Shown one piece after another: positions 44,579 to 50,420 of a stretch of 64,000 nucleotides of DNA. The notes beneath the pieces are model-generated. The model was not told the origin of the DNA. It searched no databases and was given only the letters and a program-made list of their open reading frames with translations. The stretch is taken from the NCBI GenBank assembly GCA_019635585.1, contig JAHBZE010000001.1, positions 1,612,001 through 1,676,000 on the forward strand, given 5' to 3'. Origin of the DNA: Xanthobacteraceae bacterium. GTDB lineage: Bacteria; Pseudomonadota; Alphaproteobacteria; Rhizobiales; Xanthobacteraceae. Made by a program: the position numbers and the translations under genes. Position 1 is the stretch's first letter. Every line of letters starts with the position of its first letter.

Positions 44579-46117
44579 ATGGTGCAGCATGTTTCGACCG
44601 TTGCATTCGAGGGCGTCGAGGCGCGGCCCATCGACGTACAGGTGCAGGTCGCGCCCGGACTTCCGGCGTTCAACATCGTCGGTCTTCCCGACAAGGCGGT
44701 TTCCGAAGCGCGCGAGCGCGTGCGCGCGGCACTGATCGCATCGGGCCTCGCGCTTCCCGCCAAACGCATCACCATCAATCTCGCGCCCGCCGATCTGCCG
44801 AAGGAAGGCAGCCACTACGATCTGCCGATCGCGCTCGGTCTGATGAGCGCGATCGGCGCAATTCCTTCCGACGCCGCGGAAGGCTTCATGGTGGTCGGCG
44901 AACTCGGGCTCGACGGCTCGCTCGCGCCGGTGTCGGGCGTGCTGCCGGCGGCGGTCGCCGCGAATGCGCGCGAACAAGGATTGATCTGTCCCGCACCTTG
45001 CGGCGCGGAAGCGGCCTGGGCCTCGCCAGAGATGAATCTCGTTGCGCCGCGTTCGCTCCTGCAACTTGTGAACCACTTGCGCGGCACGCAGGTGCTTGCG
45101 CGGCCTTCGCCGAAGATTCGCGAGTTCTCCGAGAACCCGCTCGACCTCAAGGACATCAAGGGACAAGAGAGCGCGAAGCGCGCGCTCGAGATCGCCGCCG
45201 CTGGCGGGCATAACCTCCTGATGGCGGGGCCTCCGGGGTCCGGCAAATCGATGCTTGCGGCACGGCTGCCTACAATTCTGCCGCCGCTCTCGCCTTCGGA
45301 GTTGCTCGAAGTCTCGATGATCCAGTCGGTCGCAGGCGCGATCGAAGGCGGGGCGCTTACGAACAAGCGTCCGTTCCGCAACCCGCATCACTCCGCGAGC
45401 ATGGCGGCGATGGTCGGCGGGGGCTTGCGCGCAAGGCCCGGCGAAGTTTCGCTTGCGCATCTCGGCGTGCTTTTCCTCGATGAGTTTCCGGAATTTTCGC
45501 CGCAAGTGCTCGACTCGCTTCGCCAGCCACTGGAGTCCGGCGAAGCGGTGATCGCACGCGCAAACCATCGCGTGACCTATCCCGCGCGCTTCCAGTTGGT
45601 CGCCGCGATGAACCCCTGCCGTTGCGGTCGCGCGACCGAACTTGGCTTCGCCTGCAAGCGTGCGCCAAACGCGCGTTGCGCGGCCGATTATCAATCGCGC
45701 GTTTCGGGTCCGCTGATGGACCGCATCGACCTGCATATCGAAGTTCCCGCGGTCTCCGCCGCCGATCTCGTGTTGCCGGCACCCGCCGAGGGCAGCCGCG
45801 AAGTAGCCGCACGTATCGCCGCCGCGCGGGAAATCGCGCTCGCCCGTTTCAAGGCGATGGGCCGCGAGAACCTGCGTACCAACGCCGAAGCCGATGCAAA
45901 ACTGATCGAGCAATTGGCCGCGCCCGACGCGCCGGGCCTTGCGCTTCTGCGCGATGCGGCGGAAGCCATGCGGCTTTCCGCGCGCGGCTATCATCGCGTG
46001 CTGAAAGTCGCCCGCACCATCGCCGACCTCGACGGCGCCTCCTCCGTCGGCCGCGCGCATCTCGCCGAGGCGCTTGCTTATCGTGCCGCGCAGGATCGCG
46101 TGGCGCTCGCCGCCTGA
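44579..46117 (+). CDS. comM: YifB/ComM family Mg-chelatase-like AAA+ ATPase
   Basis: A 512-residue AAA+ helicase; ComM drives branch migration in natural transformation in Vibrio and Acinetobacter. It has an N-terminal lon-like ChlI domain (about 20-165), Walker A GPPGSGKS (217-224), Walker B FLDEFPEF, and the C-terminal Mg-chelatase domain with a Cys-rich segment (NPCRCGR ... CKRAPNARC). An ATG at 44579 follows GGGGAGAG. An SOS box controls it, which suggests a DNA-damage role in this organism. Confidence 0.94.
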   Translation: MVQHVSTVAFEGVEARPIDVQVQVAPGLPAFNIVGLPDKAVSEARERVRAALIASGLALPAKRITINLAPADLPKEGSHYDLPIALGLMSAIGAIPSDAAEGFMVVGELGLDGSLAPVSGVLPAAVAANAREQGLICPAPCGAEAAWASPEMNLVAPRSLLQLVNHLRGTQVLARPSPKIREFSENPLDLKDIKGQESAKRALEIAAAGGHNLLMAGPPGSGKSMLAARLPTILPPLSPSELLEVSMIQSVAGAIEGGALTNKRPFRNPHHSASMAAMVGGGLRARPGEVSLAHLGVLFLDEFPEFSPQVLDSLRQPLESGEAVIARANHRVTYPARFQLVAAMNPCRCGRATELGFACKRAPNARCAADYQSRVSGPLMDRIDLHIEVPAVSAADLVLPAPAEGSREVAARIAAAREIALARFKAMGRENLRTNAEADAKLIEQLAAPDAPGLALLRDAAEAMRLSARGYHRVLKVARTIADLDGASSVGRAHLAEALAYRAAQDRVALAA

Positions 46118-46119
46118 TC

Positions 46120-46134
46120 TTAACCTTCCCTTAA
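46120..46134 (+). promoter_or_regulatory. CtrA-type binding box TTAA-N7-TTAA
   Basis: TTAA (46120-46123), 7 bases, TTAAC (46131-46135): a full match to the alphaproteobacterial CtrA consensus, about 105 bases before the hybrid kinase start. Confidence 0.65.
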
Positions 46135-46239
46135 CCACCGGCGCATTTTCGGCCCTTCGACGCGTCCCGATTTGCGCGTGTTAAGCGCCGGAGTGTCATC
46201 TTTGGGGCCGGAAATATTCCGCGTTTTCAAAGGACCGCC

Positions 46240-48411
46240 ATGACGAAAGCCGATCGTCGCATTCTTCTTCTGTCGCTTGCCGCAGGCGTTTCGCTGATGC
46301 CTACGCTTGCGTCTGCGCAGGAGATGATCGGCGACGGTCCTGAGCTCGGCTGGATCGGTCTCGGCGGCATGATCGCCTGCGCAATCGGCATCGTGTTCGG
46401 TGTCATCAATCGCCGCGCGATTTCGCTGCGGGAGAAAGTTTCGCGGCTCGAAAACGAGGTCGAAACGCGCGACGACAAGATCTGGACGCTGGAGGAACGG
46501 CTCGCGCATCTTACTGCGCTCGTGGACAGTCAGGATGATCTCGTCTTGCGCGAAGACGAGCATGGCCGCGTCACCTACGCGAGTGCCGCGACCTGCGCAC
46601 TCGCCGGAAAGAACCCGGCCGAGGTGATCGGCCGTCCGCTGAAGTTCAAGGTGCTGCGCTCCGGCGCGCGCACGCAAAGCGCGGACGGCAACTTCGCGGT
46701 CGATCAGGAAATCGAAACGCCAGAAGGTTCGCGCTGGATTTCGTGGAAAGAAGCGCCGGTACGCGGCACGCGCGGCGAGATCGTCGAAATCCAACGCACG
46801 GGCCGCGATATTACTGGGCGCGTCGCCACCGAACATGCGCTGGAAGATGCGCGGGAACAGGCGGAAGCCGCGAGCCGCGCGAAGTCGCGCTTCCTCGCGG
46901 TCGTCAGTCACGAAGTACGCACGCCGCTCAACGGCATCCTCGGAATGGCACATCTCCTTTCCGAGACGACGATGAGCCAGGAGCAGCAGACCTATGTGCG
47001 CGCCGTGAAATCCTCAGGCGAAGCGCTGCTCGGTCTGATCGAGGAAATTCTCGATTTCTCGAAGATCGAAGCCGGGCGCATCGAACTTGAAACCGCGCCG
47101 TTCGATCTCACGGAACTCGTCACCGACGTGGTCGAATTACTCAGCCCCCGCGCACAGGCAAAAGGCATCGAGATCGCGGCACAGTTCGACCGCAGCCTTC
47201 CACAAAGGGTTTCCGGCGATGCCGCGCGGCTGCGGCAGGTGTTGCTCAATCTCGCGGGCAATGCGGTGAAGTTCACCGACGAAGGCGGCGTTGCCGTCGC
47301 GGTCGAGACCGCGGGCAACCGCATTCGCTTCTCAGTGCGCGATACCGGGCCCGGCATCGAAGCCGACGCGCAAGCACGCATCTTCGAAGAATTCGAGCAG
47401 GGCGACGGCACGCTTGCGCGCAGGCACGGCGGCACCGGGCTCGGACTTGCGATCGCGTCCCGCATCGTCGAGCGCATGGGCGGCGAGATCGCGCTCTCGA
47501 GCGGCACGGACGGCGGCACAGTGTTCCGTTTCGCAATCGCGCTTCCGCCCATCACGGACGGCGCCACGGAAGACGTGCCGGACTTCATGAACGCGGATGT
47601 GATCGTGCTCTCACCGTCCGCGATCGTCGGCCCCTTGCTCGCAAACCAGATCGAGCAATGGGGCGCACGCGCCGCGATCGCCGACACCCGCGAGCTTGCG
47701 CTCACGCTTCTGCCGGAGCGACACTGGAGCCATTGCATCATCGACCGCGCTTTCGGACATGACGAGACGCTCGCGCTATACGAAATCGCGCGCCGCAACG
47801 CCGCGCATTGTCATGTGCTGCTCACGCCCGCTGAGCGCCGCGAATTGCCGACGCTGCAGGCAAAAGGGCTTGCGAGCTATCTCATCAAGCCGGTACGCGC
47901 CGCTTCGCTCGCCGCGCGGCTGTTCGATCCCGCCGCGAGCGCAATCGAAGAGGATGTTGCGCAGCAGGCCGCGTTCGAATTTGCCACCGGCAAAGGCGGC
48001 CTTTCGATTCTGGTTGCCGAGGACAACGACATCAACGCGCTGCTCGTGCAGGCCTTACTCGCGCGGATGGGCCACCGCGTCACCATCGTCGGCGACGGCG
48101 CGGTTGCGGTGAACGCGGTGGCAAGCGCGCATACGATGGGGGCGCCTTACGACGCCGTCCTCATGGACCTGCATTTGCCCGGCATGGACGGACTCGAGGC
48201 GACGCGGCGCATTCGTGCGCTCGGCGGTGCGGCGGGCACGATCCCGGTGATTGCGCTCACCGCGAACGCCTTCGAAGAAGACCGGGCGGCCTGCCTTGCG
48301 GCCGGTATGAACGGCTTCGTGGTGAAGCCCGTGGACCGCAAGCGGCTCGAGGCGGCGCTCGCCGAAGCCCTGCCTGAGAGTTCCGCAAAACCCGTCGAAA
48401 CCGCCGCCTGA
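46240..48411 (+). CDS. Hybrid sensor histidine kinase with PAS and receiver domains
   Basis: A 723-residue membrane-anchored hybrid kinase. Order: signal-like N-terminus (10-26) and a second hydrophobic segment (38-56), coiled coil (62-95), PAS (about 95-195), HisKA with phospho-His224 (FLAVVSHEVRTPL), HATPase with DTGPGIE and GGTGLGLAI, a receiver-like segment (about 452-565) without the usual acidic pair, then a complete receiver with Asp643 (VLMDLHLPGMDG). The input signal is unknown. A CtrA box in its promoter region suggests cell-cycle control. Confidence 0.92.
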   Translation: MTKADRRILLLSLAAGVSLMPTLASAQEMIGDGPELGWIGLGGMIACAIGIVFGVINRRAISLREKVSRLENEVETRDDKIWTLEERLAHLTALVDSQDDLVLREDEHGRVTYASAATCALAGKNPAEVIGRPLKFKVLRSGARTQSADGNFAVDQEIETPEGSRWISWKEAPVRGTRGEIVEIQRTGRDITGRVATEHALEDAREQAEAASRAKSRFLAVVSHEVRTPLNGILGMAHLLSETTMSQEQQTYVRAVKSSGEALLGLIEEILDFSKIEAGRIELETAPFDLTELVTDVVELLSPRAQAKGIEIAAQFDRSLPQRVSGDAARLRQVLLNLAGNAVKFTDEGGVAVAVETAGNRIRFSVRDTGPGIEADAQARIFEEFEQGDGTLARRHGGTGLGLAIASRIVERMGGEIALSSGTDGGTVFRFAIALPPITDGATEDVPDFMNADVIVLSPSAIVGPLLANQIEQWGARAAIADTRELALTLLPERHWSHCIIDRAFGHDETLALYEIARRNAAHCHVLLTPAERRELPTLQAKGLASYLIKPVRAASLAARLFDPAASAIEEDVAQQAAFEFATGKGGLSILVAEDNDINALLVQALLARMGHRVTIVGDGAVAVNAVASAHTMGAPYDAVLMDLHLPGMDGLEATRRIRALGGAAGTIPVIALTANAFEEDRAACLAAGMNGFVVKPVDRKRLEAALAEALPESSAKPVETAA

Positions 48412-48558: not shown

Positions 48559-49470
48559 ATGACCCACGTCGTTCCGCGCGGAAAGGTTGCGAACCTTCTG
48601 CCGAAGCTGCGCGCCTATAGCGGGCTGCGGCTGCCGGAGGCGAAGAGCGATTTCACGCGCACACTCGGCCGCGCCGGCTCGCTCGAAGTGAAGCTTGCGG
48701 GCAAGGCGCACGAAGTCCGCAGCGCGCAGCGGCTCCGCTACAACGTGTTCTACAAGGAAATGTCGGCGATCCCGGCCGCGACGACTTTGCTAGCGCGGCG
48801 CGACGTCGATGCCTTCGACACGATCTGTGACCACATGAACGTGGTCGATCACGAGTGGCCGAGGCTCGTGTTCGGTCTCAAGCGCCCGCGCGTGGTCGGC
48901 ACCTATCGCCTGCTCCGCCAGGAAGTCGCGCAGCGGCACGGCGGATTCTATACCCAGAACGAATTCGATGTCAGCGCGCTGATGGCGCGTCACCGCAGTT
49001 TGCGATTCCTCGAACTCGGCCGCTCCTGCGTGCTGCCGCAATACCGCAACAAGCGCACTGTCGAGCTTTTGTGGCACGGCATTTCCAACTACGTCGCGCA
49101 GCATCGGCTCGACGTATTGATCGGTTGCGCTTCGCTCGAGGGCACTAACCCCGACAAGCTCGCGACCCAGCTTTCCTTCCTGCACCATTTCGCGCGCGCG
49201 CCGGAGCAATGGCGCGCTTCCGCGCTTCCCTCGCGCCGCGTCGAGATGAACCGGATGCCGAAGGAAGCGATCGACGCCAAGGCAGCACTTCGCGAGCTGC
49301 CGCCGCTTATCAAAGGCTATCTGCGGTTAGGTGCCTATATTGGTGACGGCGCGGTGGTCGATCATCAGTTCGGCACTACCGACGTCTTGATCGTGCTGCC
49401 GATGCAGAACATCACCGGCCGCTACCGCGACAAGTTCGTCGGCGGCGACGAACAGAAGATCGCGGCTTAG
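48559..49470 (+). CDS. olsB: OlsB-type ornithine-acyl-ACP N-acyltransferase (GNAT family)
   Basis: A 303-residue N-acyltransferase that in Sinorhizobium forms lyso-ornithine lipid from ornithine and 3-hydroxyacyl-ACP. [48 protein letters not shown] and IGCASLEGT are typical of the family. ATG 48559 is preferred over TTG 48541. No olsA acyltransferase is next to it; the partner must lie elsewhere. Tail-to-tail with coaA, overlapping by 4 bases. Confidence 0.88.
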
Positions 49471-50420
49471 AGCTTTCTCAGCGCTACCGACTCGATGCGG
49501 TGATCCTCGCCTTTGCGGAGGATCAGGCTCGCGCGCTGCCGCGTCGGCAGAATGTTTTCGCGCAAGTTCGCGAGATTGATGCGCGACCAGATTCCGCGCG
49601 CGATTTCCTGCGCTTCCTCGTCGGTCACCTGCGAATAGCGGTGGAAGTAGGAAAGCGGATCGCGAAACGCGGTCGAGCGCAGCGCGCGGAAGCGCTCGAC
49701 ATACCATTTCTCGAGCACGCTTTCGTCCGCATCGATATAGACCGAGAAATCGAAGAAATCCGAAACATAGGGAATCGCCTTGCCGTCCTTCGGCGGACGG
49801 CCGGTCTGCAACACGTTCAGTCCTTCGACGATCAGGATGTCCGGGCGATGCACTTCGATCGTTTCGCCTGGGATGACGTCATAGGAGACGTGGCTATAGA
49901 GCGGCGCTTTTACGTTGCGCTGGCCGGCCTTCACATCATGGAGAAAACGCAAGAGCGCCGGAAGATCGTAGCTTTCCGGAAAGCCTTTCTTCTCCATCAG
50001 CTTTTCTTTTTCCAGTACCGCGTTCGGAAAAAGAAAACCATCAGTGGTGACGAGCTCGACTGTCGGTGTGTTCGGCCAGCGTGCGAGCAGCGCCTGCAAG
50101 ACACGCGCGGTGGTCGATTTGCCGACCGCGACCGAGCCCGCAACCCCGATGATGTAGGGCATCTTGCCGTCGCGTGCACTCAGAAATTCCTGCACGCCGT
50201 CGAACAGTTTTTGCGCGGCCTCGACATAGAACGCGAGCAGACGTGAGATTGGAAGATAGATCTCCTCGACCTCGATCATCGAGAGCTTGTCGTTGAGGGC
50301 CTGCAGGTGAACGATTTCGCTCTGGGTCAGCGTCATCGGCGTGTTTTCACGCCGCGCGGCCCATTCTTCGCGCGAGAACACGCGATAGGGGGAGATGTCT
50401 GACTCGACGCGCTGTTCCAT
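49467..50420 (-). CDS. coaA: Pantothenate kinase type I
   Basis: First step of coenzyme A synthesis. It has 317 residues. The P-loop is [17 protein letters not shown], followed by [15 protein letters not shown] and the pantothenate-site [15 protein letters not shown]; feedback inhibition by CoA is a family trait. It follows hisE on the same strand by 19 bases, ending the his-coaA run. Confidence 0.97.

Follow-up and report, generated by a model that had tools for sequence, protein, structure and literature searches.

Locus organization

The window, i.e. the whole stretch of 64 kb that was analysed, contains a gene for a hybrid histidine kinase that lies between comM on one side and olsB and coaA on the other. 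The features of the locus are listed by their positions in the window.

44579–46117, forward strand: comM (YifB-type AAA ATPase), a syntenic marker; NCBIfam TIGR00368 over cut-off
46118–46239, forward strand: intergenic region between comM and the kinase gene, presumed promoter and leader; read from the sequence
46120–46135, forward strand: CtrA box TTAA-N7-TTAAC, an exact match that is also conserved before family orthologues
46229–46234, forward strand: AAAGGA, likely ribosome binding site; read from the sequence
46240–48411, forward strand: shkA-like hybrid histidine kinase, 723 aa; Pfam, ShkA matches and tree
46246–46410, forward strand: two hydrophobic helices (residues 3–29 and about 37–57), presumed membrane anchor; sequence and AlphaFold2
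46507–46824, forward strand: PAS domain (residues 90–195); Pfam PAS/PAS_4
46879–47076, forward strand: HisKA/DHp (residues 214–279) with phospho-acceptor H224; Pfam, H224 invariant in the alignment
47215–47544, forward strand: HATPase_c (residues 326–435); Pfam
47596–47925, forward strand: REC1 pseudo-receiver (residues 453–562); AlphaFold2, alignment to 6qrj and conservation
48007–48360, forward strand: REC2 receiver (residues 590–707) with phospho-site D643 and K696; Pfam, invariant in the alignment
48403–48408, forward strand: C-terminal Ala-Ala, degron-like tail; family counts
48559–49470, forward strand: olsB, L-ornithine N-acyltransferase, order-level syntenic marker; NCBIfam NF052555 over cut-off
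49467–50420, reverse strand: coaA, type I pantothenate kinase, syntenic marker; NCBIfam TIGR00554 over cut-off

The box has the letters TTAACCTTCCCTTAAC, i.e. TTAA-CCTTCCC-TTAAC (46120–46135, forward strand). It begins 2 nt past the comM stop (46117) and ends 104 nt before the ATG of the kinase (46240), which confirms the full TTAA-N7-TTAAC that the initial annotation had placed about 105 bases ahead of the gene. This was the only match to the pattern in the window, where 100 dinucleotide shuffles gave a mean of 0.01. Across the whole genome (3.2 Mb, 2 contigs), the pattern resulted in 24 strand-hits at 18 places compared with 6 for the reversed pattern, and the single box taken alone is therefore modest evidence. 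The 61 genomes of the family yielded 1339 strand-hits for the perfect box versus 668 for the control, with perfect-box sites outnumbering the control in 54 of them.

PAS, HisKA, HATPase_c and Response_reg all scored over their Pfam cut-offs in the window kinase, in agreement with its earlier description as a hybrid histidine kinase; the same scan detected no Hpt domain. Its description as a membrane kinase holds with respect to two hydrophobic N-terminal helices, which are visible in the sequence and in the AlphaFold2 model (helices at residues 3–29 and 36–97), while the anchor itself is presumed. Between HATPase_c and REC, the model displays a receiver-like fold (residues 453–562) with a pLDDT of mostly 86–94, and this REC1 fold lacks the acidic pair when inspected by eye. 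Assignment as an orphan or a DivJ/PdhS-type kinase was rejected, since the NCBIfam scores were far under the curated cut-offs (DivJ, 138.1 bits vs. cut-off 1000; PdhS, 134.5 vs. cut-off 2000). TorS and BarA were the best partial NCBIfam matches, all below curated cut-offs, and GacS was a lower-ranking PDB match. Hybrid kinases of the BarA/TorS/GacS type have HisKA, HATPase and REC domains in common with the window kinase, which differs in having no Hpt domain.

Relationship to ShkA

In Caulobacter, stalked-cell morphogenesis is driven by ShkA-TacA, known as a G1/S switch timed by c-di-GMP. ShkA belongs there to a CtrA-linked, c-di-GMP-gated relay (excerpts of PMC7010744). The best PDB sequence match of the window kinase was 6qrj, the Caulobacter ShkA, with 344 bits (next 241). 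The same entry was the best fold match, with a Z score of 30.7 over 411 residues (next 23.0) and an rmsd of 12.3, which we read as domain movement. When the ShkA core was compared with 115 alphaproteobacterial genomes, the window kinase ranked first in its own genome with 345.8 bits, and the second-ranked protein of that genome, among the matches listed, scored 166.7 bits.

Gene neighbourhood and phylogeny agreed with these matches. comM also flanks homologues in genomes G241 (54% to ShkA), G181, G268 and G187. It is a neighbour of the kinase gene in several orders, including another order to which the L175 homologue (54% to ShkA) belongs. In a maximum-likelihood tree of 50 rows, one clade of 30 rows (support 100/99) united ShkA with the window kinase and every comM-linked row. 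The other 20 hybrid kinases, none of them comM-linked, fell outside this clade; L189 and L204 were left out of the tree as short. A scan of genome contigs yielded different hybrid kinases for the most part, and a single named locus of use, that of Bradyrhizobium sp. (L088). Reciprocal best match, comM synteny and the supported clade thus argue that the window kinase is an orthologue of ShkA by descent.

Both proteins show the domain order DHp-CA-pseudo-REC1-REC2, which in the window kinase is seen in Pfam, in the AlphaFold2 model and in the fold match to 6qrj, and they are 48% identical over the core. The window kinase differs in its additional N-terminal membrane helices and PAS domain, in the absence of the DDR linker and in a C-terminal AA in place of AG. 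The window kinase gene in addition has a CtrA box 104 nt upstream; the excerpts do not describe the promoter of Caulobacter shkA.

The pseudo-receiver, the linker and the C-terminus

c-di-GMP binds the pseudo-receiver REC1 of ShkA; binding is disturbed by the exchange Y338A, and the mutated residues include R324 and R344 (excerpts of PMC7010744). In the alignment to 6qrj, residues R533, Y547, I549, P551 and R553 of the window kinase correspond to R324, Y338, I340, P342 and R344 of ShkA, so that the c-di-GMP-linked REC1 residues by which ShkA kinases are recognized are present. Within the clade, the R324 position is R in 27/30 rows, the Y338 position is Y in 24/30 and aromatic in 29/30, and the positions of P342 and R344 are P and R, respectively, in 30/30. 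Most of the 20 outgroup rows lack residues equivalent to R324 and Y338.

The DDR lock motif, which was used to pick ShkA orthologues (PMC7010744, in excerpt), is absent from the linker between REC1 and REC2 of the window kinase, and among the 50 rows it occurs only in 6qrj and L175. For this reason we file the window kinase as a ShkA-like orthologue by descent and not as a DDR-type ShkA, and any off-state must be held differently. It could be argued that CtrA control and descent from ShkA are right and that c-di-GMP gating was nevertheless lost, the PAS domain or the membrane part driving the kinase instead. The absence of DDR from 28/30 clade rows and the extra PAS domain and membrane helices would fit such a loss. 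We consider it unlikely, given that the c-di-GMP-linked REC1 residues are kept across the clade while the outgroup rows have mostly lost them.

CtrA itself has a C-terminal Ala-Ala that is a ClpXP signal. The window kinase and 27 of the 31 family loci end in Ala-Ala after variable preceding residues, compared with 4/27 loci in the other families of the order; L060 and L071 could not be cleanly read and were scored as not AA. The C-terminal Ala-Gly that serves as ClpXP signal in Caulobacter ShkA (PMC7010744, in excerpt) is not present in the window kinase.

Candidate relay partners

Our kinase has no Hpt domain of its own. Four Hpt-domain matches were found in the genome, as well as ChpT (C2:1050035). 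The only small stand-alone Hpt is a protein of 99 aa (C2:596177) that is present in 12/12 genomes of several orders. A TTAA-N7-TYAAC near-box (≤1 mismatch) lies ≤600 nt upstream of it in 10/12 genomes, compared with 0–5 for other spacers and a mean of 0.35 in shuffles. Orthologues of a sigma54 activator whose receiver is intact (C2:1147391) occur in 15/15 genomes, and 12/15 have a near-box ≤300 nt upstream, between −70 and −89 relative to the start (0–3 for other spacers; shuffle mean 0.22). In neither of these small sets does a spacer of 7 give more exact half-site pairs than a spacer of 6 (Hpt, 2/12 vs. 3/12; activator, 0/15 vs. 2/15), which counts against the Hpt and activator boxes.

The phospho-Asp of the activator in G241 is at residue 54, as in TacA (D54E), and tacA is a direct CtrA target in Caulobacter (excerpts of PMC7010744); TacA is also listed among the activators of S. 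meliloti (PMC3616915, in excerpt). Two activator orthologues (L242 and L249) end in Ala-Gly. From conservation, the D54 position and the near-boxes we infer a ShpA-like Hpt and a TacA-like activator; an NCBIfam scan of the two proteins matched no ShpA or TacA model. L232 was rejected as a TacA candidate, its receiver looking degenerate by eye, and L233/L236 were preferred. One locus, L219 (G259:C3), encodes the ShpA-like Hpt as a fusion with a receiver domain.

A kinase that carries a REC but no Hpt domain, in a genome that encodes ChpT, could instead be CtrA-controlled and feed the CckA-ChpT-CtrA phosphorelay via ChpT, as a direct feedback loop with no separate ShpA-TacA branch. This arrangement appears quite improbable, because the stand-alone Hpt, which 12/12 genomes contain and which has near-boxes, more closely corresponds to the known partner of ShkA, and because ShkA is the reciprocal best match of the kinase. 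A separate branch through the ShpA-like Hpt is the reading that we follow below.

Conservation of the CtrA box

We compared the regions upstream of the kinase orthologues. Orthologues in other genera of the family share about 46–61% protein identity, and comM, olsB or coaA are common neighbours of most. The family loci comprise 30 from a search that matched 61/61 genomes, plus L058 from another search; L031 was left out of the box count as its contig stops short of the gene. The alignment was used to extrapolate start codons, which makes the distances approximate, and L039 and L053, with doubtful starts, were counted as misses.

The upstream DNA of the family orthologues differs, yet the N7 box recurs. 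TTAR-N7-TYAAC was found ≤300 nt upstream in 18/30 family loci, compared with 0 or 1 for spacers 2–6 and 8–13 and with a mean of 0.021 and a maximum of 1 in 1000 runs of a Markov simulation. Allowing ≤1 mismatch, TTAA-N7-TYAAC occurred ≤300 nt upstream in 25/30 loci (spacers 3–6 and 8–12, 0–4; shuffle mean 0.35). The Y of TYAAC was picked post hoc with the sequences in view, and only the strict published consensus TTAA-N7-TTAAC was a prior one; with ≤1 mismatch it was present in 17/30 family loci and 12/22 genera. The same family loci contain 18 box matches in the 9.0 kb upstream of the kinase versus 1 in 143 kb elsewhere. For TTAAN7TCAACC, the 61 family genomes yielded 115 sites (control 83), 11 of which lie ≤300 nt upstream of the kinase gene. 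The named Bradyrhizobium sp. locus (L088) also carries the box.

Conservation upstream of the orthologues lifts the box beyond chance. Its position- and spacer-specific recurrence across genera speaks, with good support at the level of motif comparison, for a functional CtrA-type site, and we regard the conserved CtrA-type site before the ShkA-like kinase as real. With ≤1 mismatch, 5/30 family loci have no box. Among them are L028 and L029, close relatives of the genus of the window that show no clean N7 box; L028 has TTAA-N6-TCAAC instead. Several orthologues have, some 40 nt past the box, a GCAA-rich element that may be part of the promoter.

A box common to the whole order was rejected, as none of the 27 non-family order loci has one ≤300 nt upstream; L066 in this set has only 226 nt of upstream sequence. 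Widening the search to 600 and 900 nt upstream gave a near-box in 1/27 of these loci, at −370. In three loci of the family f20 (L061, L062 and L064), GTAA-N7-TCAAC lies some 20 nt past the extrapolated start. The genes may in truth begin further on, and the motif suggests that a box may also exist in this second family.

CtrA and its other candidate targets

TTAA-N7-TTAAC is the consensus derived from CtrA ChIP-seq (PMC7200025, in excerpt). The box in the window shares with CtrA regulon promoters this exact consensus, the spacing of 7 and an intergenic site before a regulatory gene. Most family orthologues differ by a second half-site TCAAC, and the comparison is one of sequences. CtrA is encoded at C2:1041153 (239 aa) and matches a Caulobacter CtrA query at 84%. 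A CtrA box at ctrA itself was rejected, since only a one-mismatch site is present, far upstream.

We then scanned 20 ORFs beside the other perfect boxes, hand-picked with a codon-bias filter, and 10 had a family match. FlgB and FlgI were over the family cut-off and a FliX-like protein was below it. Further perfect-box neighbours were an MCP, a GGDEF protein, an EAL protein, a ParA-like ATPase, a DapC-like aminotransferase, urease alpha and a weak adhesin match. Motility, chemotaxis and c-di-GMP genes together are the typical look of a CtrA regulon.

The case for CtrA is motif-based, and the genome encodes several other OmpR-type regulators, which are weaker matches to the CtrA query (next best 39% identity). 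The conserved box might thus be bound by another regulator of the OmpR/PhoB type with a similar direct repeat. However, its sequence and spacing of 7 fit the CtrA ChIP-seq consensus (PMC7200025, in excerpt) and the same motif stands ahead of flagellar genes in the window genome, which leaves such a regulator a very unlikely candidate. That the box arose by chance and has no function, as the 18 such places in the genome and the 6 strand-hits of the reversed pattern might suggest, is extremely improbable in view of the position- and spacer-specific recurrence across genera (25/30 family loci at ≤1 mismatch). On comparative evidence, i.e. the N7 box of the family loci and the encoded CtrA, CtrA control of the kinase is well supported.

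Proposed circuit

The most probable reading, based on sequence comparison and on analogy with Caulobacter, is a CtrA-driven, c-di-GMP-gated relay of the ShkA-ShpA-TacA type, with the window kinase as the shkA orthologue by descent. CtrA would bind the box at 46120–46135 and drive, most likely activate, transcription of the kinase gene, whose product would be a membrane-anchored PAS hybrid kinase. By analogy with ShkA, c-di-GMP would dock on the REC1 pseudo-receiver and release autophosphorylation at H224, and the phosphate would pass from H224 to D643 of REC2. From there it could move to the ShpA-like Hpt (C2:596177) and on to the TacA-like sigma54 activator (C2:1147391). CtrA would supply all three components, kinase, Hpt and activator, each of which has a CtrA-like box. 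A PAS or membrane signal may also open the kinase besides c-di-GMP, and the Ala-Ala tail may lead to later removal by ClpXP, closing the window of activity. The expected outcome would be a pulse of sigma54-dependent expression when cells with active CtrA then see c-di-GMP rise.

In the initial annotation, the kinase was thought to be a possible uncharacterised part of the CtrA circuit. CtrA control is well supported by comparison, given the box at 25/30 loci and the encoded CtrA, but the word uncharacterised has to be withdrawn, since the kinase is by descent an orthologue of ShkA, for which a relay is already known. A more far-reaching formulation, for which our confidence is evenly poised, is that outside Caulobacterales, in the family that contains Bradyrhizobium, CtrA may control a ShkA-ShpA-TacA-type relay at each of its three steps. 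The kinase would be a membrane-anchored, DDR-less dual sensor, with a PAS domain and a c-di-GMP pseudo-receiver, and in this family it would combine a promoter under CtrA with an Ala-Ala degron. Such a relay would act as a coincidence gate of CtrA AND c-di-GMP for sigma54-dependent polarity or surface genes in non-stalked bacteria.

No description of a ShkA orthologue in Hyphomicrobiales, or of its control by CtrA, was found among the partial texts of the matches listed, and neither shkA nor tacA is mentioned in the main text of PMC4287350 or of PMC7200025. A map of transcription start sites has been published for B. japonicum (PMC4842269, in excerpt). Our results suggest that a c-di-GMP-switched developmental relay is wired to CtrA well beyond stalked bacteria. 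If the same relay is indeed under CtrA and widespread in non-stalked Hyphomicrobiales, its older role would not be stalk building. The relay would then give bradyrhizobia and their relatives a concrete effector through which c-di-GMP acts on cell-cycle control. The missing DDR lock, combined with the PAS and membrane part, offers a natural experiment on the gating of kinases by pseudo-receivers.

Other perfect boxes of the genome are placed as follows. Boxes located just before an EAL gene (G000:C1:435912, L001) and a GGDEF gene (G000:C2:303806, L017) suggest that CtrA also touches c-di-GMP turnover. Another perfect box is found between the divergent FliX-like and FlgI genes (G000:C2:561125, L021), and one more lies ahead of the gene for a ParA/MinD-like ATPase, possibly a polarity factor (G000:C1:1685797, L010).
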